Assembly: GCF_028693505.1 (NCBI RefSeq) | Contig: NZ_JAQUVF010000019.1 | Location: 1-46,077, forward strand | Origin: Oscillibacter sp. | Lineage (GTDB): Bacteria; Bacillota; Clostridia; Oscillospirales; Oscillospiraceae | Direction of reading: 5' to 3' | DNA: 46,077 bases | Shown here: positions 3,148 to 26,722 of the stretch, piece by piece | Position numbering within the stretch: the stretch's first letter is position 1 | Layout: each line of letters begins with the position of its first letter | Notes under the pieces: model-generated | Seen by the model: the letters and a program-made list of their open reading frames with translations, nothing else | The model's database searches: none | Told to the model about the DNA's origin: nothing | Program-made: the position numbers and the translations under genes

Positions 3148-3167
3148 TTTCGTAAGCGCTTACGAAT
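3148..3167. promoter_or_regulatory. Palindromic LacI-family operator O2
   Basis: TTTCGTAAGCGCTTACGAAT repeats operator O1 with only the last base changed. It ends just before the ribosome site of the LacI-type regulator at 3187. Two identical sites bracketing the leader suggest autoregulation with cooperative or looped binding of a tetramer. Confidence 0.85.
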
Positions 3168-3186: not shown

Positions 3187-4266
3187 ATGAAAACGAAAGA
3201 GACGAAGCTGACCATCTATGATATCGCACAGGAGCTGCAAATTTCCATTGCCACCGTCAGCCGCGCGCTGAACGGGAAAGAGGATGTCAGCGAGGATACC
3301 AGAAAAAAGATTTTGGAAGCAGCGGAGGAAATGGGCTATAAAGCCAGCAAAACAGCTGCCAGCCTCTCTCGGAAGGAAAAACGGTTTGCGGCGCTGTTTC
3401 CGGATTTGATCCACGATTACGACAAGGAGGTCCGCAGAGGCATCCAGAAAGCGCTGGTGGATTTGCAGGACTATCACGTGAGCATGGAGATGCTGACGAT
3501 CCCCAGCGAGCCGGCAGCCTTTGCCGAGCGGCTGCAGGAGATGGCCTATCTCGGGTACGACGGCGTGCTGCTGGTTCCGCCGGAGGGGGAAAAAATTCTC
3601 TCGGAGCGGATTCGCCAGCTGAATCTTGGGAAGATGGCCGTGGTCACCATGACCACGGATCTGGATAAGGACGGCCGCCTTTTTACCGTCCAGAGCAACG
3701 GCCTCGTGGCCGGGCGCATGGCGGGCGAGCTGCTGGGAATGGTGCTGGGGCGGGGGAAAAAGGTGGCGCTGGTCACCGGCCAGCTGACGTCTCAGGTCCA
3801 TATTCGGACCGCCGAGGGCTTTCTCGCGGAGGTGGAACGCCAGGGCTTCTCCTTTGCGGGGATTTACGAGCACCACGACATGCCCCAGCGGGCCTACACG
3901 CTGGCGGAAAAGCTGATGAAAGAGCACCCGGATCTGGACGGCATCTACATGGCAACCGCCAACTCGGTGGCATTTTGCAACCATCTGGTGGAAATGGGCT
4001 ACGGCGGAAAGCTGAAAATCGTGGCTTCCGACGTGTTTCCGCAGATGATCGACTTTTTGAAATCCGGACTGGTCCTTGCCACCATCTTTCAAAATCCCTA
4101 TACGCAGGGCAGGCTTGCCACCAAATATCTGTTTGAGTATCTGACGGAGGGCAGAAAATTTGAAGGGACGGAGATTCTGCTGGACCCGCAGATCGTTTTG
4201 AAAAGCAATCTTGAGCTGTATGAGAAAAAGCTGCGCGGCGCCATGAACGAGGACATTTTGATCTGA
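3187..4266 (+). CDS. LacI-family transcriptional regulator of the sugar operon
   Basis: The 359-residue protein has an N-terminal LacI helix-turn-helix (TIYDIAQELQISIATVSRALNG, then DVSEDTRKKILEAAEEMGY hinge region) and a periplasmic-binding-protein-like effector domain from about residue 65 onward (FAALFPDLIHDYDKEVRRGIQKAL, GYDGVLLVPPEGEK, GKLKIVASDVFPQM). Such proteins repress transport and catabolic genes until a sugar binds. An ATG at 3169 is in frame but lacks a ribosome site and sits inside operator O2; the ATG at 3187 follows GAGAGGTG. The gene heads the operon, and the two operators just upstream point to autoregulation. The likely inducer is the substrate of the ABC importer that follows. 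Confidence 0.93.
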   Translation: MKTKETKLTIYDIAQELQISIATVSRALNGKEDVSEDTRKKILEAAEEMGYKASKTAASLSRKEKRFAALFPDLIHDYDKEVRRGIQKALVDLQDYHVSMEMLTIPSEPAAFAERLQEMAYLGYDGVLLVPPEGEKILSERIRQLNLGKMAVVTMTTDLDKDGRLFTVQSNGLVAGRMAGELLGMVLGRGKKVALVTGQLTSQVHIRTAEGFLAEVERQGFSFAGIYEHHDMPQRAYTLAEKLMKEHPDLDGIYMATANSVAFCNHLVEMGYGGKLKIVASDVFPQMIDFLKSGLVLATIFQNPYTQGRLATKYLFEYLTEGRKFEGTEILLDPQIVLKSNLELYEKKLRGAMNEDILI

Positions 4267-4584
4267 GACCACAACCTGGAAAATACCGGAGAATGCGGGG
4301 AAGATTGATGAAAGGAAGGAGGGGTTGCACCCAAAATACGAAAGGTGGGCGGGACTGTCCCGCATAATGGGAACCGCAAAGGGCGGCAGAGGGCGCCGCC
4401 GAATTGTCTTGATAGACTCCAAAGCGGCCACAGCGTACATCAGTTTCAAGCAGGCAAAAGATACCCCCCACATCTCTCTTCGTGTTTTGAAAAAGCTCTT
4501 GCATGAACCCTGGACGAACAAACTTGGATATGCTGCGCGGAGGACCCCAAGAGAGGAAGCGCCGGGCAGCGGAAAGGTATGGTC
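4267..4584. other. Intergenic leader between regulator and ABC importer
   Basis: About 318 bases hold no convincing gene. Two inverted repeats are visible: GCGGGA/TCCCGC (4349-4354 with 4358-4363) and GGCGGC/GCCGCC (4382-4387 with 4395-4400). Neither is followed by a T run, so they are not clear terminators. No copy of the operator palindrome and no strong promoter were found. The last 24 bases carry the ribosome site of the binding protein, inside an 18-base sequence repeated at 7439. Confidence 0.5.
4561..4578 (+). repeat. 18-base direct repeat, copy 1 (ribosome-binding leader)
   Basis: GCCGGGCAGCGGAAAGGT occurs here directly before the binding-protein start and again, identical, at 7439-7456 before the first permease. 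The GGAAAGGT end would act as the ribosome site in both places. Confidence 0.7.
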
Positions 4585-5670
4585 ATGAAAATGAAAAAAA
4601 GCTTGAAAGCGTTGGCACTGGCACTGGCACTGGTCATGACGATGTCCCTGGCGGGCTGTGGGTCCAAGGAGGAAGCCCCTGCCGCCAATCCTGAAAAGCA
4701 GGAGGGCACGGCGGAGCCGGCGAAGGACTTCAACCCCGAGGACTACTACGTTGCCATCTGCATGGACAACATGAACCACCCCGTCCACCGCATTGTCCAG
4801 CTGGGCTTTTTGAAGGCCGCCGAGGCGCTGGGCTATACCAATGCGAAGGTCATCGGTACCGAGGGCGGCGACACCAGCGAGGCGTTTGCGGCGGCGGAGG
4901 CCTTTGCGGCGGAAGGCGGCAACGGTCTGCTGCTCTGGTCCGGCGACTCCAGCGGCTATGAGACCATTGCCAGCTGCGCAAGTCAGGGCGTGGTCGTGGG
5001 TATCCCCCACTTCAACCACAAGCAGGCGGACGGCAAGTACCCCGAGGGTCTGGCCTTCAACATGGCCTGTGACCCCACGCTCTACGGCAAGCAGGTCGCC
5101 GAGCTGATGGCCAAGAATCTGGACGGCAAGTCCGGCAGCGTGGCGCTGACGCAAAACACCAAGAACGTGACGGAAAACGCCGCCACCGATTCCTTTCGCA
5201 AGACCTGGGACTCCCTGAACGGTACTTATGATCTCGGCAAAATCACCGTGCTGGATGTGCAGCTGGAAGGCGGCGTGGTGGATGCCGCCACAGCGACCAA
5301 CCTCGCCATCATTCAGGCGCATTCCGATATCATCGGCGCCTTCGGCACCACCGGCAACTCCCCCATCACCTGGGCGGACGCCGCCACCAAGGCCGGTAAG
5401 GCAGACGGCGAGATCTTCATCGTCGGCATGGACTCCACCGAGGCCAACCTCGATTATCTGGAGGCCGGCAAGGTGCAGGCCATCGTGGCCCAGCCCCTCT
5501 ATGACGAGGCTTACAAGACCATGGAATATCTGGATACCATTTTCCGCGGCGGCACCGTTCCGGAGTGGACGGATCTGGAAGCGCCCGTTGTGACGGCAGA
5601 CGGCGAGGGCAAAAACGGCATGGAGTTCCATCGCGAGATCGCCAAGCAGGTGCAGGAATTCTTTAAATAA
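4585..5670 (+). CDS. Sugar ABC transporter substrate-binding lipoprotein
   Basis: The 361-residue protein starts with a lipoprotein signal (about residues 1-24, lipobox SLAGC with Cys25), followed by an acidic, alanine/proline-rich linker. The body is a ribose/galactose-type binding protein: YYVAICMDNMNHPVHRIVQLGFLKAAEALGY at the first strand, an EGGDTSEAFAAAEAF segment, and a IVGMDSTEANLDYLEAGKVQAIVAQP C-terminal ligand pocket region. It would capture the substrate outside the membrane and deliver it to the permeases. The start at 4585 is chosen because GGAAAGGT lies six bases away; ATG 4579 is too close. A strong hairpin follows the gene, probably to stabilise its part of the message, as binding proteins are needed in excess. 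Confidence 0.92.
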   Translation: MKMKKSLKALALALALVMTMSLAGCGSKEEAPAANPEKQEGTAEPAKDFNPEDYYVAICMDNMNHPVHRIVQLGFLKAAEALGYTNAKVIGTEGGDTSEAFAAAEAFAAEGGNGLLLWSGDSSGYETIASCASQGVVVGIPHFNHKQADGKYPEGLAFNMACDPTLYGKQVAELMAKNLDGKSGSVALTQNTKNVTENAATDSFRKTWDSLNGTYDLGKITVLDVQLEGGVVDAATATNLAIIQAHSDIIGAFGTTGNSPITWADAATKAGKADGEIFIVGMDSTEANLDYLEAGKVQAIVAQPLYDEAYKTMEYLDTIFRGGTVPEWTDLEAPVVTADGEGKNGMEFHREIAKQVQEFFK

Positions 5671-5690
5671 GAAACGCGGTTGAATCTCCC

Positions 5691-5729
5691 GAGAGGGTGT
5701 TACAAGGGCTCTCCCGGTAACACCCTCTC
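5691..5729 (+). other. Intercistronic stem-loop after the binding-protein gene
   Basis: GAGAGGGTGTTAC (5691-5703) pairs perfectly over 13 bases with GTAACACCCTCTC (5717-5729). The loop is 13 bases. No T run follows, so full termination is unlikely. Hairpins in this place are known in other ABC operons to protect the upstream binding-protein mRNA and to lower expression of the genes that follow. Confidence 0.75.
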
Positions 5730-5789
5730 AGCATTCACAAAGCGCGTTGCAAGGTGAACGGAAGCACACGGACCGGGGAAGGGGAAGTT

Positions 5790-7373
5790 ATGGAGACGAA
5801 CTATGTGCTGGAAGCCGTAAATATCACAAAGCGGTTTCCCGGCGTGCTGGCAAACGACGCGGTTTGCCTGAACGTCAAATACGGCGAAGTACTGGGTCTG
5901 ATCGGCGAAAACGGCGCCGGAAAGTCCACGCTGCTCAAAATGTTAAATGGGATATACCCCAGCGGTTCTTATGAGGGATCGTTGGTTTTGGAGGGGACGG
6001 AGATTAAGCCGTCCAGCCCGCTGGACGCCATCCGTCAGGGAATCGGCTACGTGCCGCAGGAGACGAACGTGCTGAAAAACTTCAGCGTGGCGGAAAATAT
6101 CTATATGTCGAATCTCCGTCTGGAATCGTTGCAGGTCCAGGGCCGTCATTCCAAAAACCCGTTTGTGGATTTTGGAAAACTATATCAGGCCTGCACGGAG
6201 CTGCTCAAAGACAATAAAATCGATTTGGACCCGAAGGCGGACGTGCGGAAGCTGTCCGTCGGTCAGCAGCAGATGCTGATGATCGCCCGGGCGCTGGCGA
6301 CCAAGCCGAAGGTCCTCATTTTGGATGAGCCTACCACCTCCCTTTCCGCCAGCGATGTGGAGAGCCTGTTCGAGGTGGTGCGAAACTTAAAAGAGCACGG
6401 CACCAGCATCATTTTCGTGACCCACAAGCTGGAGGAGATTCTGGAGCTGACCGACCGGGTCACCATTTTGCGGGACGGCAGGAATATCAGTACCTATAAA
6501 AAGGCGGAGTACGACACCATGCGGATCATCGCCGATATGATCGGCCGCCAGATGTCCGACCTGTATCCCACGCGAGACAACCCCGTCGGGGAGGAAATCT
6601 TCCGGGTGGAGGGCCTCACGGTGGAGCATCCCTACATCGCAAACCGGGATTTGATCCACGAGGTCTCCTTCTCCGTCCACTCCGGCGAGGTGCTGGGCCT
6701 TGGCGGGCTGGTGGGCGCGGGCCGGTCCGAGGTGTGCTCGGCCATTTACGGCATGATGCCCCTGAAGTCCGGCAAAATCTTTCTCGATCAAAAGGAAATC
6801 CACATCCGTACCACGGAGGACGCCGTACGCCACGGCATCAGCATGGTCAGCGAGGACCGCAAGCGCTACGGCTTGAACTTCAGCTGGGACATCCAGAAGA
6901 ACATCGTCATTTCCAATTTGAAGGCGGTGAGCCACGCCTGCTTTGTGCTCCGGCAGAAGATCAGGGGGCGCGCGGAGCCTTATTTTCAGGACCTGCGCAT
7001 CAAAGCGCCCAGCCTCAATACCCGGGTCGCCACGCTTTCCGGCGGAAACCAGCAAAAGGTGGTCATCGCCCGGGCGCTGAACACGGAGCCGAAGGTCATC
7101 ATCCTCGACGAGCCCACCAAGGGCATCGACGTGGGGTCGAAGAACGAAATCTATCAGCTGATCAATCAGCTCAGCGCCACCGGAGCCGCCATCATCATCA
7201 TCTCCTCCGACCTTCCCGAGCTGATCGCCATGAGCGACCGAATGGTAATTATGGCGGAGGGGCGGGTGGCCGGCGAGCTACAAAAGGACGAGGCCAAGGA
7301 GATCCGGATCATGCAGCTGGCGACCAAGACCTTCCGGAATGAGGAAAAACGGGAACAGCAGGCGGCGGTTTGA
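5790..7373 (+). CDS. Sugar ABC transporter ATP-binding protein (RbsA/MglA type, two ATPase domains)
   Basis: The 527-residue protein contains two fused ABC domains, as in ribose and galactose importers. Domain one has a perfect Walker A (GENGAGKST, residues 39-47), signature LSVGQQQ and Walker B VLILDEPT. Domain two has the degenerate first motif typical of this family (GLGGLVGAGRSEVCSAIYG), signature LSGGNQQK and Walker B VIILDEPTKGIDVGSK. It energises uptake through the two permeases encoded next. The ATG at 5790 follows GGGGAAGGGGA; a GTG at 5754 has no comparable site. It lies 119 bases after the binding-protein gene, behind a stem-loop. Confidence 0.95.
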   Translation: METNYVLEAVNITKRFPGVLANDAVCLNVKYGEVLGLIGENGAGKSTLLKMLNGIYPSGSYEGSLVLEGTEIKPSSPLDAIRQGIGYVPQETNVLKNFSVAENIYMSNLRLESLQVQGRHSKNPFVDFGKLYQACTELLKDNKIDLDPKADVRKLSVGQQQMLMIARALATKPKVLILDEPTTSLSASDVESLFEVVRNLKEHGTSIIFVTHKLEEILELTDRVTILRDGRNISTYKKAEYDTMRIIADMIGRQMSDLYPTRDNPVGEEIFRVEGLTVEHPYIANRDLIHEVSFSVHSGEVLGLGGLVGAGRSEVCSAIYGMMPLKSGKIFLDQKEIHIRTTEDAVRHGISMVSEDRKRYGLNFSWDIQKNIVISNLKAVSHACFVLRQKIRGRAEPYFQDLRIKAPSLNTRVATLSGGNQQKVVIARALNTEPKVIILDEPTKGIDVGSKNEIYQLINQLSATGAAIIIISSDLPELIAMSDRMVIMAEGRVAGELQKDEAKEIRIMQLATKTFRNEEKREQQAAV

Positions 7374-7438
7374 GCGCATGCCTCCGAAAATCGAATGATG
7401 CTGCGGGAAGGGCGCGCCGTCGTTTGCGCTTCGGGCCT

Positions 7439-7456
7439 GCCGGGCAGCGGAAAGGT
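7439..7456 (+). repeat. 18-base direct repeat, copy 2 (ribosome-binding leader)
   Basis: Identical to 4561-4578. Here the GGAAAGGT end is nine bases before the ATG of the first permease. Sequence on either side of the two copies does not match. Confidence 0.7.
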
Positions 7457-7464
7457 GCAGTCAT

Positions 7465-8454
7465 ATGATGAGACTAAAAGAAAGAAACGAGCGTTCGGGA
7501 CTCGGGCTGAAGCTGCTGCTGACGCCGGAATTCGGAATTTTGATCCCGATTTTAATCGTATGCGTCATCACAACCATTTTGAAACCCAACTTCCTCACAT
7601 GGAAATACATCTCTTCCATTCTGGTGGGCAGCGTTTTCATCGGAGCCGCCACCATGGGAGAATCGCTGGTGATCATGGCAGGCGAGATCGACCTGTCCGT
7701 GGGCATGAACGGGTGCCTGGCGGGCGTCATGTGCGGCATTGCCGCCAGCCAGTGGGGGCTGGGGTTGGTCCCCTGCGTGCTGATCTGCCTGCTCACCGGC
7801 GCGGTGGTGGGGGCGCTCAACGGCGTTTGCGTCTGCTATCTGGGCCTGAGCAGCTGGATCACCACGCTGGCCACGCAGTTTATCTGTCAGGGCCTTGCGG
7901 TGACCATCTCCCAGGGAGAGCCGCAGTCCATCGCGTCGCTTGGATTGTCCTCCGTCACAAGAGCCAAGCCCTTGGGGCTGAGCTGGCTGTTCTTCGTCTT
8001 TGTGCTGCTGATCGTTTTGCTGGATGTGCTGATCCGGCGGACCCGGTACGGGTACTCGCTGCGCTCCGTGGGCGGCAATCAGGAGGCCTCGGTGATGGCA
8101 GGGCTGAACGCAAGACGCATCAAGCTCATTGCCTTTATCCTTGCCGGTACGTTTGCGGCGGTGGGCGGACTCTTTGATACGCTGAACGCCGGCGCTGCCA
8201 ACGCGGCATTTGGAAGCGGCAGAGAGTTCCGGGCCATCATCTGCTGCGCCATCGGCGGCATTTCCATGACCGGCGGCGCGGGCTCCGCCTTTGGCATTGC
8301 GCTGGGCGTGCTGCTGTTCCACACGCTCTGGTACTGCCTGCGGATTCTGGACGTCAATACAAACCTGCAGCTGGTGCTCATCGGCCTGATTCTGGTGCTG
8401 TCCGTCATTATGGACATTCAGCGCAAGCGGCTGGAAGCACGCAAGCTTGTCTGA
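7465..8454 (+). CDS. Sugar ABC transporter permease 1 (RbsC type)
   Basis: This 329-residue membrane protein has about nine to ten hydrophobic segments, beginning near residue 23 (FGILIPILIVCVITTILKP). Family motifs include GESLVIMAGEIDLSVG near the first periplasmic loop, RTRYGYSLRSVGGNQEASVMAGLN (the cytoplasmic coupling loop that contacts the ATPase) and EFRAIICCAIGGISMTGGAGS. These are typical of the ribose/xylose/autoinducer-2 permease family. Start may be 7465 or the next codon 7468. It is followed after 21 bases by a second, different permease, so the channel is probably a heterodimer. Confidence 0.93.
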   Translation: MMRLKERNERSGLGLKLLLTPEFGILIPILIVCVITTILKPNFLTWKYISSILVGSVFIGAATMGESLVIMAGEIDLSVGMNGCLAGVMCGIAASQWGLGLVPCVLICLLTGAVVGALNGVCVCYLGLSSWITTLATQFICQGLAVTISQGEPQSIASLGLSSVTRAKPLGLSWLFFVFVLLIVLLDVLIRRTRYGYSLRSVGGNQEASVMAGLNARRIKLIAFILAGTFAAVGGLFDTLNAGAANAAFGSGREFRAIICCAIGGISMTGGAGSAFGIALGVLLFHTLWYCLRILDVNTNLQLVLIGLILVLSVIMDIQRKRLEARKLV

Positions 8455-8475
8455 CCCGGGCTGGAAGGAGGATGA

Positions 8476-9474
8476 ATGACAATGAACGAGCAGACGATTC
8501 AAAAAACACAGACCGGGGCGCTGCGGCGTCTGACGCGGACAGACGAATTCGGCGTGCTGATCCCGCTGATTATCATCGTTGCGGTGACGACGGTGCTCCG
8601 TCCCGCCTTTTTATCCGTGGGCAACTTCTCTTCCATGTTCACGCAGCTGACCTTCATCGCGCTGACGGCGCTGGGCGCCAGCTTCCCCCTGATGGTGGGA
8701 CAGGTGGATATTTCCACCGGCAAGGTGGCGGGCTTTGCGGGGATCATCATGTCCTCGCTGGTGGTGGACCATGGCATGGACATGTTTCCCGCCATCGTGA
8801 TCGCCATGGCGGCCTGCCTTGCGGTGGGCGTTCTCAACGGCGTGCTGGTGGTTTACTGGAAAATCCCGGACTTTGTGGCCACCATGGGAACGCTCTATAT
8901 GGTGGGCGGCGCACGGTATCTTTTCGTTAAGGGGTATCAGTTTTCCCTCGCCACCCAGGAAAGCCACAAGCTGGTGGATGTTTTTGACGGGCGCTATTTT
9001 GGCATGCCGATCTACGTATGGATCATGGTGGCCATCTTCGCCATCGTGTTTGTGATCATCAAAAAAACGCTGTGGGGCCGCAGACTTCTGGCGGTGGGCG
9101 ACAACCGGGAGGTGGCCATCCTCTCCGGCATCCACGCGGATAAGATGCGCGTGCAGGCGTATATCATCTCCGCCGCGCTCTCCGCGGTGGCAGGGCTGCT
9201 GCTGACGCTGGACGTGGGCGTGGGTCTGCCGGAGACCGGAGACGGCTGGGAGTTCCGCGCCATTGCCGGGTGCGTGGTGGGCGGCGTCAGCTTAGCTGGC
9301 GGCAAGGGGTCTCCGCTGGGCGTGCTGATCGGCATTTCGCTGGTGTTCGTGGCGGAAAACGCCATCATTTTCCTGGGGTGTCCTGCCACCATGAAGGTGG
9401 CGGTGCAGGGCCTTTTGATGGCAGCCGCTGTTTTGTGCGACCTGTACCGGCAAAAGAGGAAGGTCGCGGCGTAA
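8476..9474 (+). CDS. Sugar ABC transporter permease 2 (RbsC type)
   Basis: The 332-residue membrane protein is a paralogue of the permease before it, sharing the layout and key pieces: FGVLIPLIIIVAVTTVLRP at the first helix, GQVDISTGKVAGFAGI, the coupling loop RRLLAVGDNREVAILSGI and EFRAIAGCVVGGVSLAGGKGS. The two are clearly diverged rather than a recent copy. Having two permease genes with one double ATPase suggests a heterodimeric pore. AAGGAGG precedes the start; ATG 8476 is four bases from it and ATG 8482 ten, so the true start could be either. Confidence 0.93.
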   Translation: MTMNEQTIQKTQTGALRRLTRTDEFGVLIPLIIIVAVTTVLRPAFLSVGNFSSMFTQLTFIALTALGASFPLMVGQVDISTGKVAGFAGIIMSSLVVDHGMDMFPAIVIAMAACLAVGVLNGVLVVYWKIPDFVATMGTLYMVGGARYLFVKGYQFSLATQESHKLVDVFDGRYFGMPIYVWIMVAIFAIVFVIIKKTLWGRRLLAVGDNREVAILSGIHADKMRVQAYIISAALSAVAGLLLTLDVGVGLPETGDGWEFRAIAGCVVGGVSLAGGKGSPLGVLIGISLVFVAENAIIFLGCPATMKVAVQGLLMAAAVLCDLYRQKRKVAA

Positions 9475-9571
9475 AAATCCCAAAGCGGGACGGAGTGGCC
9501 CTGCTTGCGTATGGAAAAAAGACCGACGGGTGAAAGCGTACCACCCAATTTTGATGTGAGGAGCGAAAATC

Positions 9572-10360
9572 ATGCAGGTAGATTTAAAAGATAAGGTCGT
9601 TCTTGTGACGGGAGCCGGCGGCGCCATCGGCGGCGCCATGGCAAAGGCCTTTGCCCGCAACGGGGCAAAGGTGGCGGTGGCGGGGCGGACGCTTGCCACA
9701 CTGCAAGCCACGGTGGATGAAATTACGGCCGCGGGCGGCGCCGCCGCTGCGGTGATTGCCGATGTTGGCAACAAGGAGAGCGCCCGGGCAATGATCGAGG
9801 AGACCGTGGGTCTCTTCGGCGCTCTGGACGTGCTGGTGAATAACGCCGGCATCAACGGCGGACCGGAAGAGCGCAAGCCCATCCACCAGTACTCCGACGA
9901 GCTTTGGGAAAAGATCATCAACGTGGACCTCAACGGCGTGTATTACTGCTCCAAGCCCGCCATTTTGCAGATGGAAAAGCAGGGCCACGGCGGCAGTATC
10001 ATTAACATCGGCTCCATCGTGGGCCTTGCGCCGCTGCGGCTCCAGTGCGCCTTCACCGCCGCCAAGGCGGGCGTGTTCAATCTGACGAAGGCCATGGCGC
10101 TGGAGCTGGCCCCGCTCAACATCCGGGTCAACGGCATCGCGCCGGGGTCCATCATGTTCGAGGGGACCAAAAAGCTTTTCTACGCGGACGCGCAAAAGGC
10201 GGAGGCCATGATGTCCCACATCCCCATGCACCGCCCCGGCGAGCCGGAGGATATCGCGGGCATGGCGTGCTTTTTGGCTTCGGACGACTCCGCCTATATG
10301 ACGGGGACCGTCAACGTGGTGGACGGCGGGTGGATTTGCGGCTACACCCGAGACTTTTAA
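9572..10360 (+). CDS. Short-chain dehydrogenase/reductase with Phe at the catalytic Tyr position
   Basis: The 262-residue protein is a classical SDR: cofactor loop TGAGGAIGG (residues 13-21), NNAGING (90-96), active-site Ser148 in NIGSIVGL, and the C-terminal NIRVNGIAPGS and GTVNVVDGGW motifs. The acidic/hydrophobic pattern after the second strand (VAVAGRTLATL) has Arg rather than Asp, leaning to NADP. The expected YxxxK motif reads FTAAK: Phe161 (codon TTC, 10052-10054) replaces the catalytic tyrosine, while Lys165 is kept. It probably acts on the imported sugar or a derivative, but either by altered chemistry or as a non-oxidoreductive SDR. It has a GTGAGGAG ribosome site and lies 16 bases before the zinc dehydrogenase. 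Confidence 0.92.
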   Translation: MQVDLKDKVVLVTGAGGAIGGAMAKAFARNGAKVAVAGRTLATLQATVDEITAAGGAAAAVIADVGNKESARAMIEETVGLFGALDVLVNNAGINGGPEERKPIHQYSDELWEKIINVDLNGVYYCSKPAILQMEKQGHGGSIINIGSIVGLAPLRLQCAFTAAKAGVFNLTKAMALELAPLNIRVNGIAPGSIMFEGTKKLFYADAQKAEAMMSHIPMHRPGEPEDIAGMACFLASDDSAYMTGTVNVVDGGWICGYTRDF

Positions 10361-10376
10361 AAGGAGAGAACGCGCT

Positions 10377-11420
10377 ATGAAAGTATTGGTAGCGTATCAG
10401 CCCGGCGAGCTGCGGATGGTGGAAATGGACCGCCCGGTGCCCGGCCCCCGGGAAATTCTCGCAAAGGTCGCCCACTGCGGCATCTGCGCCACGGATGTGG
10501 CTATTGCGGCGGGGACGCTGAAGCTGGGTGCGGGCATGGACCCCATCTATCCCGTGCGCATCGGGCACGAGTGGTCCGGCGTCATCGTGGAAACCGGCAG
10601 CGAAGCGTGGCGGCTGAAGGTGGGCGACCGGATCATCAGCGACACCGGCTATTCCTGCGGCGAGTGCGAGTACTGTTTGCGGGGCGACTATCAAAGCTGC
10701 GTCAACGGCCGCGCCATCGGCACCACCGGCGCGTGCTGGCCCGGTGCGTTCGCGGAGTACATGCTCATGCCCGAGCGGCTAACCTACAGGGTCCCGGACA
10801 ACGTGCCGCTGGACGAGGCGGCGCTGGTGGAGCCTTCCAGCATCGGCCTCTACGGCCTGACCCGCTCCCAGATGGGACCGGGGCAAAATCTGCTGGTGGT
10901 GGGCACCGGGCCCATCGGCCTTGGCGGTATGGCCTGCGCCAAGGGAATGGGCGCAGGAAAGGTGATTCTGGCTGGGCGGAAGGACAAAAAGCTGGCCGTG
11001 GGCAAGACCATGGGCGCGGACGTGCTGGTGAACACCACCCGGGAAAATCTTTTTGATGTGGTGATGCGGGAGACGGGCGGCCGGGGCATGGACGTGATTT
11101 TGGATACCACCGGCTCCGCGGAGCTGTTCAACGACATGCTGGAAATGCTGCGCCCCAGCGGAACGCTGGTCATCCCCGGGTTCTATGAGCAGGAAATTCC
11201 CTCCGCCAATCTGGACCGGCTGATCGCCAAAAACTGCACGCTGGTGGGCGCGGCGGGCACGCCCAATATGGGCCGCCCCATTCTGGATCTACTCTCCAAC
11301 GGGCATGTTTCCCTCAAGCCCATGATCACCGACCGCTATCCCTTTGAAAAGGCGCGGGAGGCCTTTGCGGCGGTAAAGGAACGCAACGACAGCCGCATCA
11401 AGATCATGGTGGATTTCTGA
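10377..11420 (+). CDS. Zinc-dependent alcohol/polyol dehydrogenase (MDR family)
   Basis: The 347-residue protein belongs to the medium-chain dehydrogenases such as sorbitol, threonine and galactitol-phosphate dehydrogenases. Visible features are the catalytic zinc ligands in CGICATD and GHEWSG, the third ligand region VEPSSIGLYGL, the structural zinc cluster C-x2-C-x2-C-x7-C in GYSCGECEYCLRGDYQSC, and a Rossmann loop GTGPIGLGGMACAKGMGA. It should oxidise a secondary hydroxyl of a sugar or polyol, or reduce an aldehyde made by the aldolase, with NAD(P). The ATG follows AAAAGGAGAG. Substrate cannot be told from sequence. Confidence 0.93.
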   Translation: MKVLVAYQPGELRMVEMDRPVPGPREILAKVAHCGICATDVAIAAGTLKLGAGMDPIYPVRIGHEWSGVIVETGSEAWRLKVGDRIISDTGYSCGECEYCLRGDYQSCVNGRAIGTTGACWPGAFAEYMLMPERLTYRVPDNVPLDEAALVEPSSIGLYGLTRSQMGPGQNLLVVGTGPIGLGGMACAKGMGAGKVILAGRKDKKLAVGKTMGADVLVNTTRENLFDVVMRETGGRGMDVILDTTGSAELFNDMLEMLRPSGTLVIPGFYEQEIPSANLDRLIAKNCTLVGAAGTPNMGRPILDLLSNGHVSLKPMITDRYPFEKAREAFAAVKERNDSRIKIMVDF

Positions 11421-11433
11421 GCGGTAAGCGGCT

Positions 11434-12537
11434 ATGAAGCAGTGGAACCCCATGCAGGACCGACCGTCCTGCATCGCGTACTACGGCAATATGGCGCAGG
11501 CGGCATCTTTGCGCCGCTGCACGCTCAGCGACGGAAAGGCCCGGGGCGTGGAGGCGGTGGACGTGCGCACCGGGGGCGGGCTGGAATTCACCGTCCTCCC
11601 CGGCCGGGGCATGGACATTGTGGACTGCCGGTACCGGGGCGTGCCGGTTTCCTACCTCTCCAAGGCAGGCGTCACGGCCCCCGGGTATCATGACCCCCGG
11701 GAAAGCCAGTGGCTCCAGAGCTTTTTTGCGGGCATGGTGACCACCTGCGGCCTTTCCAATGTGGGACCGGCCTGCGTAGACGAGCACCCCGTTCTGGGGC
11801 CGGTGCCCTACGGACTCCACGGCGACATCTCCAACACCGGGGCTGACAACGTGGGCACGCGGGAGGCGTGGACGGCGGGGGGCTACACCATGGAGGTGAC
11901 CGGCCGCATGAGCGAGGGACGGCTCCACGGGGAGCACCTGACCCTTCGCAGAACGGTGACGGCCCGCCTTGGCGAAAAGCGCTTCTTTTTGCGGGACGTG
12001 TTCACCAACGAGAGCGCCGCACCAAGCCCGCTGCTGTTTTTCTATCACATCAATATCGGTCACCCTATTTTGGATGACGGGTCCCGGCTGCTGTTGCCCG
12101 TGGGGCGCGTCTGGGCCGAGACGGAAGTCTCCAAGGCCGGGATGGAGGGGTACGACCGTTGCGGCGGTCCCCGCCCCGGCGCGCTAGAGCAGCAGTTTTT
12201 TCACGAACCGAAAACCGACGGGGCGGGAAAGACCGTGATGGCGCTGGTCAACGACGACCTTGCGCTGGGGCTGTACCTGCGCTATACGCGGGCGCAGCTG
12301 CCCTGCCTTGCCCAGTGGAAGGTGGAGCGTCCGGGGGAGTATGTCTTTGCGTTTGAACCGGGAATCTGCCACCCCAAAAGCCGGCGGGAGCAGCGGGAGC
12401 AGGGAACGCTCACGGTGCTCGCGTCCATGGAGAGCCGATGCGTGGACCTGGAGATCGGCATGTTGGACGGCGCTGAGGAAATCGCGGCGCTGGAGCGGGA
12501 AATTGCGGAGATCCGCAGGGGAGGAATCGGAGAATGA
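11434..12537 (+). CDS. DUF4432 / aldose-1-epimerase-like protein
   Basis: The 367-residue protein has the galactose-mutarotase-like fold signature of DUF4432: GLEFTVLPGRGMDIVDCRYRGVPVSYLS near residue 50-75, PYGLHGDISNTGA with the conserved His, LRRTVTARLGEKRFFLRDVFTN, and a CLAQWKVERPGEYVFAFEPGICHP C-terminal part. Related genes occur in sugar and deoxyribose catabolic operons, where some are thought to act as mutarotases; that link is recalled, not proven here. The job here is probably to interconvert anomers of the imported sugar. The ribosome site is weak. It overlaps the next kinase gene by four bases (ATGA), so the two are translationally coupled. Confidence 0.82.
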   Translation: MKQWNPMQDRPSCIAYYGNMAQAASLRRCTLSDGKARGVEAVDVRTGGGLEFTVLPGRGMDIVDCRYRGVPVSYLSKAGVTAPGYHDPRESQWLQSFFAGMVTTCGLSNVGPACVDEHPVLGPVPYGLHGDISNTGADNVGTREAWTAGGYTMEVTGRMSEGRLHGEHLTLRRTVTARLGEKRFFLRDVFTNESAAPSPLLFFYHINIGHPILDDGSRLLLPVGRVWAETEVSKAGMEGYDRCGGPRPGALEQQFFHEPKTDGAGKTVMALVNDDLALGLYLRYTRAQLPCLAQWKVERPGEYVFAFEPGICHPKSRREQREQGTLTVLASMESRCVDLEIGMLDGAEEIAALEREIAEIRRGGIGE

Positions 12538-13463
12538 AGAAAAAAATTGTGGTCTTTGGCAGCTTCGTGGTGGATCTGACCGCCAGAAGCCCCCGGCTTC
12601 CCATGCCGGGGGAGACGGTTTTGGGCAGCGCCTTTTCCATGGGGCCCGGAGGCAAGGGGTCCAATCAGGCGGTGGCGGCCCATCGGGCGGGGGCGGACGT
12701 AACCCTTGTCACTAAGGTGGGACAGGACGTGTTCGGCGCCGTCGCCACGGACTTTTACGAACGGGAGCGGATGGATACCCGCTATGTGCTGAAGGATGCA
12801 CACCACGAGACCGGCTGCGCCCTCATCACGGTGGATGAACACTCCGCGCAAAACGAGATCGTGGTCATCAGCGGCGCTTGCGGCTGCCTGACGGAGGGAG
12901 ACGTGGAGAAGTGCCGCGCCCTCATCGAAGGGGCGGGGCTGCTGCTGGTGCAGCTGGAGGTAAACTTTGACGCGCTGTTCCGCGTCATCAAAATTGCTCA
13001 TGAGGCGGGCGTGCCCATTGTGCTCAATCCCGCTCCGGCAAAGGAACTGCCGGACGAGATTCTCCGCATGATCGACGTTGTGACGCCAAACGAGACGGAA
13101 GCGCAGCTGCTCACCGGCGTGGAGGTCAAAACGGAGGCGGACGCCCGCCGGGCCGCGGAGGTGTTTCTTTCCAAGGGGGTCAAACAGGTGGTCATCACGC
13201 TGGGGTCCATGGGGGCGTTTGCCATGGACCGGGAAAGAAGCGAGCTGCTGCCCCGGCTGGAGGTGGAGGCCGTGGATACCACCGGCGCGGGGGACGCCTT
13301 TAACGGCGGCTTCGTCACGGCGCTCTCGGAGGGGGCGGACCTCTTCACCGCGCTGCGCTGGGGCAACGTGACCGGCGCGCTGTCCGTGACCCGTTTGGGA
13401 ACGGCCCCCGCCATGCCCCGCCGGGCGGAGATCGAGACGCTGTATCAAAAAGTTTATGGCTGA
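12534..13463 (+). CDS. Ribokinase-like PfkB-family sugar kinase 1
   Basis: The 309-residue protein is a PfkB-family kinase close to ribokinase. It starts with KKKIVVFGSFVVDLTARSPRLP, has the substrate loop GPGGKGSNQAVAAHRAGA (around residues 37-55), NPAPAKELPD, VTPNETEAQLLTG and the catalytic/anion-hole motif DTTGAGDAFNGGF with its Asp base. It should phosphorylate a pentose or related sugar with ATP. It overlaps the DUF4432 gene by four bases and has a GGGGAGG ribosome site. A second, distinct ribokinase-like gene lies 1 kb downstream, so the two probably differ in substrate or act on two products. Confidence 0.93.
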   Translation: MKKKIVVFGSFVVDLTARSPRLPMPGETVLGSAFSMGPGGKGSNQAVAAHRAGADVTLVTKVGQDVFGAVATDFYERERMDTRYVLKDAHHETGCALITVDEHSAQNEIVVISGACGCLTEGDVEKCRALIEGAGLLLVQLEVNFDALFRVIKIAHEAGVPIVLNPAPAKELPDEILRMIDVVTPNETEAQLLTGVEVKTEADARRAAEVFLSKGVKQVVITLGSMGAFAMDRERSELLPRLEVEAVDTTGAGDAFNGGFVTALSEGADLFTALRWGNVTGALSVTRLGTAPAMPRRAEIETLYQKVYG

Positions 13464-13476
13464 CAGGAGGAAAACA

Positions 13477-13983
13477 ATGGAACTGTATCCGCTGGGCGTG
13501 AGAAGAGACGGCTCCTACTATACCCGCATCGAGTGGGCAAGCCATACGGAGTCGGACCCCACCTTCTGGGTGGCGAATCTGATTCGGGACGACACAGAGC
13601 GAAACGGCGGCACCTGGGGCGCCAACACCAAGGGGCCTGCCTCGGTGGTGGTGAGCTTTTTCGGAGAGAGCCAGAAGATCGGCAAAATCCGTATCTTCCG
13701 CAACGTGGGACTGGATATCAGCGTGCTGGAGGAGCTGGCAAAAGCCGTGGACCTTTACATCAGCAATACCGACGAGCCCAGAAAGCTGCGCCGGAAGGAG
13801 GACCGCATCGAGGACGTCCCGTGGACCTTCCTTGCCCACGTGGAGCTGGAAAAGGCAGAGGGCTGGCAGGAAATTTTGCTGGAACAGCCGGTGGAGGCCA
13901 AGTACCTGCGCATGGACCTGCTGGAAAACTTCGGCACGCCCATTCCGTGGACCGAGACCAGCGAACTGAAGCTTTATCCCTGA
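13477..13983 (+). CDS. Discoidin / F5/8 type C-like protein of unknown role
   Basis: The 168-residue protein has no signal peptide or membrane segment, so it should be cytoplasmic. The pattern WASHTESDPTFWVANLIRDD, NTKGPASVVVSFFGESQKIGKIRIFRN and VEAKYLRMDLLENFG resembles a galactose-binding (discoidin, F5/8 type C) fold, which usually binds carbohydrate on secreted enzymes. A stand-alone, intracellular version inside a catabolic operon is unusual. It could be a sugar-binding accessory or an unrecognised enzyme. ATG 13477 is chosen for its AGGAGGAAAA site; ATG 13456 overlaps the kinase end and lacks one. The fold call is by eye only. Confidence 0.7.
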   Translation: MELYPLGVRRDGSYYTRIEWASHTESDPTFWVANLIRDDTERNGGTWGANTKGPASVVVSFFGESQKIGKIRIFRNVGLDISVLEELAKAVDLYISNTDEPRKLRRKEDRIEDVPWTFLAHVELEKAEGWQEILLEQPVEAKYLRMDLLENFGTPIPWTETSELKLYP

Positions 13984-14027
13984 CCCGGAGAAACCGGCTC
14001 AATTTTAAATATCGGAGGAACAATGCT

Positions 14028-14468
14028 ATGGAAAAGAAAAAATGGACGCTTGTCAACGCGGAAAACGTCGCGCCGTTTGTGTGCGATGAGACATATTCTT
14101 CCAAGCAGCTCACCGGCGACGAGATGGCGGGCTTTCCCGTCATCAACATCAACGAGGGCACCTTGAAGGGCGGCTGCCGCACCGGCGGCGGCGCTCACGA
14201 GGAGGCGGAGATTTATTACATCGTGGAGGGAAGCGGCATCCTCTGGCTGGATGAGGACAGTGTCCCCGTGAAACCCGGCGATATCATCATCATCCCGCCC
14301 CACGTGTTCCACTGGATCGACAACACCATGAACGAAAAGGAATTCAAGCTCTTTACCCTCTGGCCCAAGCAGGAGCAAAACGACGTGTATTTTACCCGGA
14401 AGAAGGCCTGGGGCACCGCTTTCAAATATCTGGACCCGGACTATCTCCAAAAGAGACGGGAGCAGTAA
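14028..14468 (+). CDS. Cupin-domain protein
   Basis: The 146-residue protein is a single cupin barrel. Motif one is seen in GGAHEEAEIYYIVEGSGILWLDEDS and motif two in PGDIIIIPPHVFHWIDN, which supply His and Glu residues suited to binding a metal. Small cupins in sugar operons are often isomerases, epimerases or lactone-handling enzymes, but the exact reaction cannot be read from sequence. The ATG at 14028 follows ATCGGAGGAACA. One base separates its stop from the second kinase, so they are tightly coupled. Confidence 0.85.
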   Translation: MEKKKWTLVNAENVAPFVCDETYSSKQLTGDEMAGFPVININEGTLKGGCRTGGGAHEEAEIYYIVEGSGILWLDEDSVPVKPGDIIIIPPHVFHWIDNTMNEKEFKLFTLWPKQEQNDVYFTRKKAWGTAFKYLDPDYLQKRREQ

Positions 14469-14469
14469 G

Positions 14470-15393
14470 ATGCGGATCACGGTTCTGGGCGATCTGCTGT
14501 ACGACTGCTTTATCTGGGCGGACCGTCTTCCGAGGGTCGGCGAGACGGTGACCGGGGACCGCAACGGCTTCTATGCCGGGGGCAAGGGCGGCAATCAGGC
14601 GGTGCAGGCGGCGCGTCTGGGAGCCGAGGTCCACATGATCGGCAAGGTGGGCCGGGACGAGCGGGGCGCGTTTCTGCTGGAAAATCTCCGGCGGGAGGGC
14701 ATCCACGCGGAGTTTGTAAGCCAAGAGGGCGAAACCGGCACCTGCTGCGTGCACGTGGACCACGCCGGGCACAACGCCATCATCGTAGCTCCCCTGGCAA
14801 ACGAAAAGCTTACGGTGGAGGAGGTCCGCCGGGCGCAGTCGCTCATTGAGCACTCCGATGTGCTGCTCATGCAGCTGCAAGTCAACGAGGAGGCCGTCAC
14901 CGAGGCGCTGCGCATTGCCCACGGGGCAGGGGTACGGACGGTTTTAAATCCGGCTCCCGCCAGAAATGTACCGGGCGCGTATTTTAAAACCGTGGACTTC
15001 TTCACCCCCAATGAGACGGAGGCGGAGTTCTTCACAGGGTACTATCAATCCGAAATGGAGAATGCTTCGTGGCGGCGCGCGGTGGTGGACGCCTTCCGGA
15101 AAAAGGGCGTGCGCAACCTGATCGTGACGCTGGGGGAGCGGGGGTGCCTGTACGCCGGGGAGGAAGACGAGCTGCTCTGCCCGCCCTATCCCGTGGAGGC
15201 GGTGGATACCACGGCGGCGGGGGACTCTTTTAACGCCGCGCTGTGCGTGTCTCTGGCCGGGGGAGACTCCCTTGCCCAGGCGCTGCGCCGGGCCAACGCC
15301 GCAGGCGCGCTGACGGCGTCCCGCCACGGTTCGCTGCCGTCCATGCCGGACCGGGAGACACTGGAAACATTTATGAGGAGGAATGCAACATGA
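14470..15393 (+). CDS. Ribokinase-like PfkB-family sugar kinase 2
   Basis: The 307-residue protein is a second PfkB kinase, with substrate loop YAGGKGGNQAVQAARLGA, NPAPARNVPG, FTPNETEAEFFTG and the catalytic motif DTTAAGDSFNAAL; the Ala is also found in E. coli ribokinase. It is clearly diverged from kinase 1 and has an insertion after the TPNETEAE motif (about residues 190-205). It probably phosphorylates a pentose, deoxy-pentose or nucleoside-like sugar. Its stop overlaps the aldolase start (ATGA at 15390), a direct pairing that suggests this kinase supplies the aldolase substrate. Confidence 0.93.
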   Translation: MRITVLGDLLYDCFIWADRLPRVGETVTGDRNGFYAGGKGGNQAVQAARLGAEVHMIGKVGRDERGAFLLENLRREGIHAEFVSQEGETGTCCVHVDHAGHNAIIVAPLANEKLTVEEVRRAQSLIEHSDVLLMQLQVNEEAVTEALRIAHGAGVRTVLNPAPARNVPGAYFKTVDFFTPNETEAEFFTGYYQSEMENASWRRAVVDAFRKKGVRNLIVTLGERGCLYAGEEDELLCPPYPVEAVDTTAAGDSFNAALCVSLAGGDSLAQALRRANAAGALTASRHGSLPSMPDRETLETFMRRNAT

Positions 15394-16064
15394 AAATCAG
15401 CCGCTATTTTGACCATGCGGTGCTGAAACCCAATATGACCGAGCAGGAGGTGCGAGACGCCATCCAGCTGGGCATCGACTATGACGTCTATTCCGTGTGT
15501 GTGCGCCCCTGCGACATCGATCTGGCCGTCTCTATGTGTAAGGGCACCAACACCCGCGTCAGCTGCGTGCTGGACTTTCCCCACGGCGACAGCACCGCCG
15601 AGGGCAAGGCCGCGCTTGCGGAGCAGTACGCCGCCAAGGGCGTGGCGGAGATCGATATGGTGATGAACTTCGGGTATGCCCGCTCCGGGAAGTGGGACGA
15701 GGTGGAGGCGGGGATCGCCGGTGTGGTGCGCGCCGCCAAGGCCCACGGCGTGGGCGTGAAGGTCATTTTTGAAAGCTGCTGCCTGACGGTGGAGGAGATC
15801 AAAAAGGCCACCGAGCTTTGCATCCATGCCGGGGCGGACTTCGTGAAAACCTCCACCGGCTTTGCCGCCTCCGGGGCCAGCGTGGAGGCTGTCGCGGCCA
15901 TGCTGGAAGCCGCGCAGGGCCGTATCAAGGTGAAGCCCTCCGGCGGCATCCGGGACTATGAGACCGCGAAAAAATACGTGGACATGGGCGTTCACCGTCT
16001 GGGCGTGGGCTTTGGCTCCACGCCGGGAATCTGCAAGGGCGAAGCGGCGGCGCTTGGCGAGTAA
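15390..16064 (+). CDS. DeoC-family aldolase with altered phosphate loop
   Basis: The 224-residue protein has the class I aldolase signature of deoxyribose-phosphate aldolase: VLDFPHG, EIDMVMNFG with Asp89, the Schiff-base Lys153 in FVKTSTGF and Lys182 in KPSGGIR. Normal DeoC cleaves 2-deoxyribose 5-phosphate to acetaldehyde and glyceraldehyde 3-phosphate. The usual C-terminal phosphate loop (RIGTSSG or RFGASS) reads RLGVGFG: the two serines are Gly207 and Phe208 (16008-16013). The substrate may therefore be non-phosphorylated or different. AGGAGGA precedes the ATG, and it overlaps kinase 2 by four bases. I withhold the symbol deoC because the activity is uncertain. Confidence 0.88.
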   Translation: MKISRYFDHAVLKPNMTEQEVRDAIQLGIDYDVYSVCVRPCDIDLAVSMCKGTNTRVSCVLDFPHGDSTAEGKAALAEQYAAKGVAEIDMVMNFGYARSGKWDEVEAGIAGVVRAAKAHGVGVKVIFESCCLTVEEIKKATELCIHAGADFVKTSTGFAASGASVEAVAAMLEAAQGRIKVKPSGGIRDYETAKKYVDMGVHRLGVGFGSTPGICKGEAAALGE

Positions 16065-16083
16065 GCGGGAAGGAGACGGGCAA

Positions 16084-16872
16084 ATGAACTTTCCGGAAGC
16101 GGTGGAAGGGCAGGCGGTAAAGCCCGGTCAGGCCGCTGTTTTCTGGCTGGGTCAGGCAGGGTTTCTCATCAAGACGGCGGGCGGCAGGAAAATTGCCATC
16201 GACCCGTATCTCTCCAACTGCGTGCAGCGTCTCATCCCCGAGGAGGGGGACGGATTTAAGCGGCTGATGCCGCCGCCGTGCGAAGCGAAAGAACTGGATT
16301 TGGACGTCCTGCTCATCTCCCACGAGCACAACGACCACTTCGACGTGGACGCCATCGGCGATCTGGTGCGGGAAAAGACGCAGGTTTATACCAACTGCGT
16401 GGTGGCGGCCCAAATGGAGGAGATGGGCTTTGCCGCTGACCAAATACACGTGCTGCACAAGGGGCAGGCGGAAGCTCTGGGGGAGTGCACCCTGCTCCCG
16501 GTGGACTGCGACCATGGGGAGCTGGCCCCGGAGGCGCTGGGCTTTCTGCTGGATTTCGGCTTTGGCAGGCTCTATTACGCGGGCGATACCGCGCTGACGC
16601 TCAGCCGCCTCGCGGTCCCTCTGGCAATGCGTCCCGAGGTGGCCATTCTGCCCATCAACGGGGCCTTTGGCAATTTGAACGGCGTGGAGGCCGCCCGCTA
16701 TGCGGGACTGCTGGGGTGCAGGGTCTGCATCCCGTGCCACTTCTGGACCTTCCCCCTCCATCACGGCGATCCTCAGCAGATCATCGAGAGCATCGGCGCG
16801 CTGGCGCCAAGGTGCCGCGTGCAAATGCTGTGTCAGGGCGAGGGCTGCCTCGTCGGCGGGGAGGCCCCTTGA
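16084..16872 (+). CDS. UlaG-like metallo-beta-lactamase-fold hydrolase
   Basis: The 262-residue protein has the metallo-beta-lactamase fold motif HEHNDHFD (His80, His82, Asp84, His85), the IKTAGGRKIAIDPYLSN beginning, RLYYAGDTALT and a C-terminal IPCHFWTFPLHHGDP segment. This arrangement matches the UlaG group, whose founder opens L-ascorbate 6-phosphate lactone. A lactonase would fit an operon with a sugar dehydrogenase that makes a lactone. It is the last gene of the operon, with a GGAAGGAGA ribosome site, and is followed by a perfect 20-bp terminator stem. Its exact substrate is unknown. Confidence 0.88.
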   Translation: MNFPEAVEGQAVKPGQAAVFWLGQAGFLIKTAGGRKIAIDPYLSNCVQRLIPEEGDGFKRLMPPPCEAKELDLDVLLISHEHNDHFDVDAIGDLVREKTQVYTNCVVAAQMEEMGFAADQIHVLHKGQAEALGECTLLPVDCDHGELAPEALGFLLDFGFGRLYYAGDTALTLSRLAVPLAMRPEVAILPINGAFGNLNGVEAARYAGLLGCRVCIPCHFWTFPLHHGDPQQIIESIGALAPRCRVQMLCQGEGCLVGGEAP

Positions 16873-17039
16873 AACCATTGCCGCGCAAAGACTTGCGGCA
16901 AAATAATGTGAACAATTTGTAAAGAGAAAAAAGGATGCGGAGATTTAAAACTTTCGTAATAATTGGCGCTGGTTTGCTTAACAACTTTCCGGTATCTTAA
17001 TACTTGCAAGAGACAAAACTTCTTTTCATCCAATCTTCC

Positions 17040-17084
17040 AAAATAGGAAACGGGTCAGCCACAAGCTGACCCGTTTCCTATTTT
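17040..17084. terminator. Bidirectional terminator closing the sugar operon
   Basis: AAAATAGGAAACGGGTCAGC (17040-17059) pairs perfectly with GCTGACCCGTTTCCTATTTT (17065-17084) around a five-base loop. T runs exist in both directions. It ends the plus-strand operon and also the convergent minus-strand membrane protein gene. The preceding 167 bases are AT-rich and hold no convincing gene. Confidence 0.93.
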
Positions 17085-17152
17085 GATTTTCGCCCACCGA
17101 CAGCGCTGCCGGCGGGCGAAAACGGTAGAATCAAAGAGGAAAAGGTGCTATA

Positions 17153-18044: not shown

Positions 18045-18073
18045 AGTATAGCATAGCCACCGTGGTTTGTCCA
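18045..18073 (-). promoter_or_regulatory. Sigma-A promoter for the membrane protein gene
   Basis: On the minus strand TGGACA (18073-18068) and TATACT (18050-18045) are separated by exactly 17 bases. It lies 47 bases before the start at 17998. Confidence 0.7.
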
Positions 18074-18082
18074 TGCCGGGCC

Positions 18083-18111
18083 ACATTTTCCGCAGGGTCG
18101 CGGCATAGAGT
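18083..18111 (+). promoter_or_regulatory. Candidate sigma-E (sporulation) promoter for spoIID
   Basis: ACATTTT (18083-18089), a 14-base spacer and CATAGAGT (18104-18111) resemble the mother-cell sigma-E consensus (ATATT near -35, CATACAAT near -10), with two mismatches in the -10. spoIID is a sigma-E gene in Bacillus, so the placement is sensible. Matched by eye. Confidence 0.4.
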
Positions 18112-18151
18112 AGAGGGACAGGCTATCCCCATACGGAAGAGGAGGAGACTC

Positions 18152-26456: not shown

Positions 26457-26483
26457 GGCGTGTCTCCTCCCTTCCAAATGATT

Positions 26484-26526: not shown

Positions 26527-26569
26527 AAATTCCATCTTGCCGGAAAACCGCCTCTGCGGACAGTTTTCC

Positions 26570-26722
26570 CAACCGTTCAAGCTTTAGCCTCACAAGGCAG
26601 TGAAATCGCATTAGATGATACCTTCCTGTTCGATATCGCCTGTTCAAACCATCGCATGATGTCTCCATCATTTTGCGGCAGCGATCCATATCCCTGTGGT
26701 AGCCTTACCTACCGGACGTTAT
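26570..26722 (-). promoter_or_regulatory. M-box (ykoK-type) magnesium riboswitch
   Basis: The minus strand between the promoter and the terminator shows the M-box landmarks in order: GGTAGGTAAGGCTACC (26716-26696 region), CGCTGCCGCAAAATG, GGTTTGAACAGG, then GCTAAAGCTTGAACGG near the 3' end (GCTAAAGC at 26588-26581). M-boxes sit upstream of mgtE in Firmicutes and turn it off when magnesium is plentiful. Position, element order and the following terminator all fit. Exact ends are approximate. Confidence 0.8.

Follow-up and report, generated by a model that had tools for sequence, protein, structure and literature searches.

An operon at positions 3187-16872 of a contig from Oscillibacter sp. 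(NZ_JAQUVF010000019.1, assembly GCF_028693505.1) raises the question of which compound a bacterium would import and degrade with a sugar transporter, two dehydrogenase-type proteins, a UlaG-like hydrolase, a cupin, a discoidin-fold protein, ribokinase-family kinases and a DeoC-family aldolase. The window that we analysed is this single contig (C30; 46,077 nucleotides) from a genome of 2.06 Mb in 49 contigs that is 97.65% complete. Assigning the genes to families with Pfam and NCBIfam, we confirmed that the operon is real and that it comprises 14 plus-strand genes, where a sequence-only reading of the window had counted 13. Their order is lacI, sugar-binding protein (sbp), ATP-binding cassette (ABC) ATPase, two permeases, short-chain dehydrogenase/reductase (SDR), zinc-dependent dehydrogenase (ADH), DUF4432, rbsK1, discoidin (disc), cupin, rbsK2, deoC and ulaG (Table 1), and from the SDR gene to ulaG neighbouring genes overlap or lie no more than 44 bases apart. 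Our answer is tentative: this would be an operon of an undescribed type, in which an imported sugar-like compound is remodelled to a 2-deoxypentose-type sugar that is then handled by a kinase and DeoC. That the operon forms a complete, locally regulated catabolic unit for a compound that is not simply deoxyribose we likewise regard as possible, somewhat short of probable.

The first line of evidence is conservation. Relatives were located with the disc gene as the marker, so that the search covered cores containing disc. The protein database holds 275 relatives of the disc protein; 40 of them (from the 120 listed) were aligned together with five orthologues from the loci described below, and these are 60-86% identical to the window protein. 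At E 1e-20 the gene is rare: it was found in one of 391 genomes of the class and one of 398 of the phylum (in both cases the window genome itself), two of 394 of the order (the window genome and G753), three of 327 of the order of G826 (including G826), three of 118 of the family of G753 (including G753) and two of 18 of the family of G1303, the last with no new carriers; the sampled genome sets overlap between these searches. The distinct carriers number seven: the window genome (G000), G753, G1552 and G1578, these three belonging to another family within the window's order, and G826, G1303 and G1396. We define a seven-gene core of SDR, ADH, UlaG, cupin, DeoC, RbsK1 and disc, which is complete on a single contig in five of the seven carriers (G000, G826, G1303, G1552 and G1578). 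G753 has six of the genes on C17 and disc on C12, while G1396 has disc alone on C33, with DeoC copies elsewhere.

Outside the core the loci differ. The importer (79-81% identity to the window in the binding protein and 69% in the ATPase) and DUF4432 (51%) are present in G826 as well, and G1303 has two binding proteins (50-54% identical) with the remaining importer genes. DUF4432 has no match in the fetched stretches of G1303, G1552, G1578 and G753 and is thus accessory, and no frame of the relatives' loci matched RbsK2 better than RbsK1. In G1552 and G753 the order SDR-UlaG-ADH-cupin is found. Metagenome proteins point the same way: we compared lists of disc, SDR and cupin clusters (120 listed of 275 for disc, of 2347 for SDR and of 200 for cupin), each giving the longest contig of a cluster. 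The disc and SDR lists share 11 exact contig sizes above 3000 bases, as against a mean of 0.2 and a maximum of 3 in 1000 jittered lists, and the disc/cupin and SDR/cupin lists share 7 and 10 exact sizes, respectively. As the contigs are matched by size and not by name, this is indirect evidence for linkage of the three genes. The core is rare in the sampled genomes. Even so, its carriers come from two or more families of the order to which the window belongs and from the group of G826 and G1303, and it is also seen among metagenome proteins; from this we conclude that it probably serves a real nutrient. The sequence-only reading had called the locus an orphan sugar-utilisation operon whose set of enzymes is unusual and had proposed a neighbourhood search of related genomes; the search recovered the conserved set in five other genomes, the literature covered, judged mostly by titles and abstract openings, yielded no paper describing it, and the description stands.

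The second line of evidence is the SDR. In all four printed alignments with solved SDRs the catalytic tyrosine faces a phenylalanine, whereas the serine and lysine are kept. An aspartate occupies the position of the catalytic asparagine; since the solved SDRs themselves vary here (Asn in two of four, His in the other two, both domains of 2et6), this asparagine is not universal. The window protein thus lacks both the tyrosine of the YxxxK motif and the asparagine of a classical SDR. The same phenylalanine and aspartate occur in six of six core SDR copies and in all 120 listed SDR sequences (of 2347 matched; one is the window's own), and in G1578 another SDR with Asp-Ser-Phe-Lys (D-S-F-K) residues is the neighbour of a DeoC-like gene, while G1396 supplies the remaining two SDR frames of the fetched loci, which read N-S-Y-K. 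Because the change is kept in every copy, it argues for altered chemistry and not for decay, and, judging from these residues, ordinary dehydrogenase chemistry is unlikely, contrary to the normal dehydrogenase that had been assumed for this gene. By analogy with dienoyl reductases without this tyrosine, reduction of a C=C bond is one option for the SDR.

The residue after the second strand serves as an indicator of the cofactor. In ADH it is part of a Gly-Arg pair in six of six core copies, which suggests NADP(H). The core SDRs have aspartate there in five of six copies, and Gly-Arg-Thr stands in the window SDR and in 112 of the 120 listed sequences; this variation yields no common cofactor rule. 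A split in which the SDR would use NAD and ADH would use NADP was dropped for the window on account of the Gly-Arg-Thr of its SDR.

The third line of evidence is the end of the pathway, for which we see moderate support. The catalytic Lys, Lys and Asp of DeoC (which we take to be the Schiff-base lysine, the second lysine and the aspartate that act in the family) are kept in all ten DeoC copies aligned, of which six belong to the core, and the genomes of G753 and G1552 have no DeoC match at E 1e-8 other than the core copy. The usual phosphate-binding motif of 2-deoxyribose-5-phosphate aldolase is GTSSG; the core DeoCs of G1552, G1578 and G1303 read GTSSG and that of G753 reads GTSAG. Two relatives show what may follow. 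In G826 an aldehyde dehydrogenase of the acylating type comes after the core DeoC, below cut-off with each model (AdhE, 468 bits; sulfoacetaldehyde dehydrogenase, 438; an acetaldehyde dehydrogenase model, 422), and next come genes of the succinyl-CoA-ligase type and a complex of the pyruvate-dehydrogenase type. The G1303 core has a microcompartment-type locus next to it, with an aldehyde dehydrogenase at 649 bits against a subfamily cut-off of 403, two DeoCs (one counted as core) and, recognised by eye and not by profile search, shell proteins, a PduL-like protein and a triose-phosphate isomerase (TIM). Given these neighbours, the DeoC product is probably an aldehyde that is oxidised further. 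RbsK1 aligns best with ribokinases. At the position of what we take to be Asn14 of E. coli RbsK, window RbsK1, window RbsK2, G826, G1552, G1578, G753 and G1303 have V, L, V, N, I, V and V, and the hydrophobic residue in six of these seven kinases is suggestive of a deoxy sugar, but RbsK and DeoK enzymes found in nature have overlapping substrate ranges, according to the parts of a report that we consulted (PMC13432705). A DeoC and ribokinase end accompanied by five other proteins in six of six core genomes suggests prior conversion to a 2-deoxypentose-type sugar. The deoxypentose guessed at by the sequence-only reading thus gains moderate support from the kinase and DeoC end and from its neighbours in two relatives.

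From this arrangement we infer a substrate, a set of reactions and their order as follows. The compound would enter through the CUT2-type importer, with release of the LacI repressor. ADH, the remodelled SDR, the UlaG-type metallohydrolase, the cupin and the discoidin protein would act on the compound, with the probable mutarotase DUF4432 helping; oxidation, elimination or hydrolysis, and reduction could together unlock it, in the manner of levoglucosan degradation, to give a 2-deoxypentose-type sugar. A ribokinase-family enzyme would phosphorylate this sugar, and DeoC would cleave it to an aldehyde (acetaldehyde or a close relative) and a triose phosphate, which would be glyceraldehyde-3-phosphate if the sugar is 2-deoxyribose. 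ADH keeps its Cys/His/Glu and four-Cys zinc motifs in six of six core copies, the UlaG-like protein keeps HxHxDH and the cupin keeps His, Glu and His, each in seven of seven aligned copies. For the sugar-lactone route that the sequence-only reading named as its other guess, UlaG homology alone is insufficient for assigning lactonase activity. The discoidin protein matches the discoidin (F5/8 type C) family by sequence or fold, its predicted model is a discoidin/CBM32-type sandwich (mean pLDDT 81, weak at residues 35-37 and 49-51), and by eye it has no signal peptide. Among solved structures DUF4432 has a single distant relative, 3ty1. A more specific form of the proposal, which we consider unlikely as a whole, is that a redox-coupled module of an undescribed pathway makes the 2-deoxy sugar for DeoC, the D-S-F-K SDR acting as something other than a dehydrogenase (e.g. 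in C=C reduction) and the cytoplasmic discoidin protein as an enzyme or a substrate chaperone.

Several observations weigh against the conversion to a 2-deoxypentose-type sugar, or narrow what may be concluded from the core. The DeoCs of the window and G826, the two loci that have DUF4432, read GVGFxST in place of GTSSG, so that they may not take a 5-phosphate in the usual way. A second member of the DeoC family (36%) lies on C2 of the window genome, and the operon DeoC may accordingly be specialised. No aldehyde dehydrogenase is among the genes of the window operon. One of the seven kinases keeps asparagine at the Asn14 position, and RbsK1 and RbsK2 both pass the TIGR02152 ribokinase cut-off and not that of NF008353, which makes ribose a possible substrate. 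The sugar-binding-protein model matches sugar-binding proteins and singles out no ligand. In G1396, where the genome-wide searches covered disc, DeoC and UlaG, there is no UlaG match at E 1e-15, and, as the genomes were found through disc, the constancy of disc in the set is partly due to selection.

Comparison with described systems helps to place the operon. It resembles the deo pathway (DeoK and DeoC) in its PfkB kinase, its DeoC with intact catalytic residues and the adjacent mutarotase-like protein, but differs in five further conserved proteins, the altered DeoC phosphate motif, the CUT2-type importer and the LacI regulator. With the oxidative deoxyribose/deoxyribonate pathway, as far as the sections consulted describe it (Price et al. 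2019, PMC6365646), it shares an SDR and a hydrolase for sugar derivatives, and that pathway runs beside the kinase and aldolase in two species; however, its beta-keto acid cleavage enzyme, molybdenum dehydrogenase and glycerate kinase are not among the family matches of the window operon, whose SDR residues are moreover changed. Axen et al. (2014; PMC4207490, consulted in part) name compartments with DeoC and TIM sugar phosphate utilizing (SPU). The G1303 core is like these loci in being adjoined by DeoC, aldehyde dehydrogenase and, by eye, PduL-like, TIM and shell-type proteins, but the core comprises six further genes in addition to DeoC. By eye, without a profile search, we recognised shell-type genes in G1303 and G1396 and none in the G826, G1552, G1578 and G753 stretches, and no shell protein is among the family matches of the window operon. 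The levoglucosan pathway LgdA-B1-B2-C, in the portion of the report at hand, is encoded in a cluster with a LacI regulator and a sugar ABC importer and opens up a modified sugar through oxidation, elimination, hydration and reduction (PMC7676230); the window cluster also has a LacI regulator and a sugar ABC importer, and we borrow the reaction logic by analogy, the sequences being uncompared. E. coli yphA-H, annotated as putative, shares a sugar-type ABC importer, a zinc dehydrogenase 30% identical to that of the window and an aldose-epimerase-like gene, but has no annotated SDR, cupin, kinase, DeoC, UlaG or discoidin gene. E. coli YphB was tried as a homologue of DUF4432 and rejected, as it gave no match to the window protein at E 1e-3.

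Among the alternatives to a remodelled compound, the one we weighed most heavily is a plain operon for 2-deoxyribose or DNA sugar, with import, mutarotation by DUF4432, phosphorylation by RbsK1 and RbsK2 and cleavage by DeoC, the SDR, ADH, UlaG and cupin forming a side branch such as oxidative use of deoxyribose or deoxyribonate. That kinase and DeoC constitute a known pathway, that an oxidative SDR route runs in parallel in two species and that a third has an SDR and a lactonase (PMC6365646) speak for it, as does the link between SPU-type microcompartments and deoxyribose phosphate (PMC4207490, PMC8156839), since a similar-looking locus adjoins the G1303 core; these statements rest on the consulted parts of the papers. 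A side branch, however, should get lost somewhere, whereas six of the seven disc carriers retain SDR, ADH, UlaG and cupin together with the kinase and DeoC; neither a beta-keto acid cleavage enzyme nor a glycerate kinase is among the Pfam and NCBIfam matches of the operon, and the SDR residues are unlike those of an ordinary dehydrogenase. On balance we find this explanation rather doubtful.

We give still less credence to two others. By analogy, a cyclitol or other carbocycle might be converted by the two oxidoreductases to a 1,3-diketone, hydrolysed at a C-C bond by the UlaG-like protein and isomerised by the cupin before kinase and aldolase finish; the logic is that of the inositol pathway reportedly present in Thermotoga, in which the UlaG-like protein would take the part of the diketo-inositol hydrolase IolN. 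ADH scores 213 bits to IolM, against a cut-off of 450, but the L-threonine dehydrogenase model is close behind at 200 bits, the binding-protein model matches ribose-, arabinose- and glucose-binding proteins with scores equal to or above that of 4irx, and DUF4432 and the kinase/DeoC pair point to an aldose, so we think a carbocycle improbable. A pentose, hexose or sugar-lactone route, with the SDR as a 1-dehydrogenase and UlaG as a lactonase producing an aldonate, ADH supplying a keto acid for the cupin and a DeoC of different specificity, seems to us equally remote. It would account for the SDR exceeding, at 225 bits, the 215-bit cut-off of the NCBIfam subfamily 'glucose 1-dehydrogenase', for the SDR-UlaG-ADH-cupin order and for the changed phosphate motif of the window DeoC; the replacement of tyrosine by phenylalanine is nevertheless unexpected for an aldose 1-dehydrogenase, and the core DeoCs of three relatives retain GTSSG. 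We return to the conversion of an imported compound to a 2-deoxypentose-type sugar as our preferred, tentative reading.

In the literature covered, judged mostly by titles and the beginnings of abstracts and including few subscription papers, we found no description of the gene combination or of the SDR residues; the protein families are known individually, and the combination and the SDR residues are new as far as that literature shows. Two families are worth assaying, that of the stand-alone discoidin protein and that of the D-S-F-K SDR; the core provides genes that could be taken directly into in vitro reconstitution, and it may hint at what feeds some DeoC-bearing microcompartments.

The operon carries its own signals. 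Two palindromes, both TTTCGTAAGCGCTTACGAA(A/T), lie upstream of lacI, and in the 97.65% complete genome the 18-nt palindrome core occurs, at up to three mismatches, at these two sites only; LacI probably controls this operon alone. Importer operons usually make the binding protein in excess, and the hairpin between the sbp and ATPase genes fits such an excess. The operon is flanked by a tRNA-adenosine-deaminase-like gene near 2187 (by eye) and by a SpoIID gene at 18062-19171. Its GC content, 0.61 against 0.60 for the window, gives no compositional sign of recent import.

Table 1. Genes and signals of the operon, in window coordinates
Feature	Coordinates	Strand	Remarks
LacI-type operator, perfect palindrome TTTCGTAAGCGCTTACGAAA	3029..3048		0 mismatches, chance 0.00
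Second LacI-type operator	3148..3167		1 mismatch over 20 nt; inner 18 perfect
LacI-family regulator	3187..4266	+	longest frame opens at 3169; 3187 likelier start (by eye)
CUT2-type sugar-binding lipoprotein (Peripla_BP_4)	4579..5670	+	
Hairpin between sbp and ATPase genes	5691..5729		13-nt perfect arms
Sugar ABC ATPase	5754..7373	+	nearest models xylose XylG, GguA, AraG and RbsA, each below cut-off
ABC permease 1	7468..8454	+	
ABC permease 2	8476..9474	+	
SDR-fold protein	9572..10360	+	Asp-Ser-Phe-Lys where Asn-Ser-Tyr-Lys tetrad expected
Zinc-dependent medium-chain dehydrogenase/reductase (ADH)	10377..11420	+	IolM/Tdh-like, under both cut-offs
DUF4432 aldose-epimerase-like protein (probable mutarotase)	11434..12537	+	
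PfkB/ribokinase-family kinase RbsK1	12534..13463	+	
Stand-alone discoidin (F5/8 type C) protein	13477..13983	+	frame opens at 13456; AGGAGG ahead of ATG at 13477
Single-domain cupin	14028..14468	+	
Second PfkB/ribokinase-family kinase RbsK2	14470..15393	+	outside conserved core
DeoC-family aldolase	15390..16064	+	phosphate motif changed: GVGFGST for GTSSG
UlaG/UPF0173-like metallo-beta-lactamase-fold hydrolase	16084..16872	+	
Terminator-like hairpin	17039..17085		21-nt perfect arms, downstream of operon

The cupin start was placed at 14028. A 311-aa frame beginning at 13533 would give the cupin a long N-terminal fusion, but the sequence ahead of the cupin in this frame is the disc gene read out of frame, and we rejected this reading.

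The relatives' loci hold further genes beside the core. G1578 has a second core-type set: the DeoC-like gene and D-S-F-K SDR mentioned above lie on C74 (L072:4910-6339), and C76 (L059:27-5744) has an FAD-dependent oxidoreductase with ADH, UlaG and cupin; the two contigs are short (7394 and 6751 bases, respectively) and may be parts of one locus. In G826 (C16, L033:7983-9236) a LarAH6-family nickel-dependent malate racemase (579 bits, above cut-off) directly follows the core ADH, and in G1303 (C91, L029:8612-9544) UlaG and disc are separated by a gene of 310 aa that matches nothing in Pfam or NCBIfam at the thresholds used and appears epimerase-like by eye. G1396 has, on C150 (L060:1-7542), two DeoC copies together with, by eye, a regulator, a TIM and a 789-aa glycyl-radical-like enzyme with its activase, possibly an unusual microcompartment locus. 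Elsewhere in the window, an M-box magnesium riboswitch (26561-26723, minus strand, 89 bits) lies upstream of a 468-aa gene (25071-26477, minus strand) that by eye is MgtE transporter-like.

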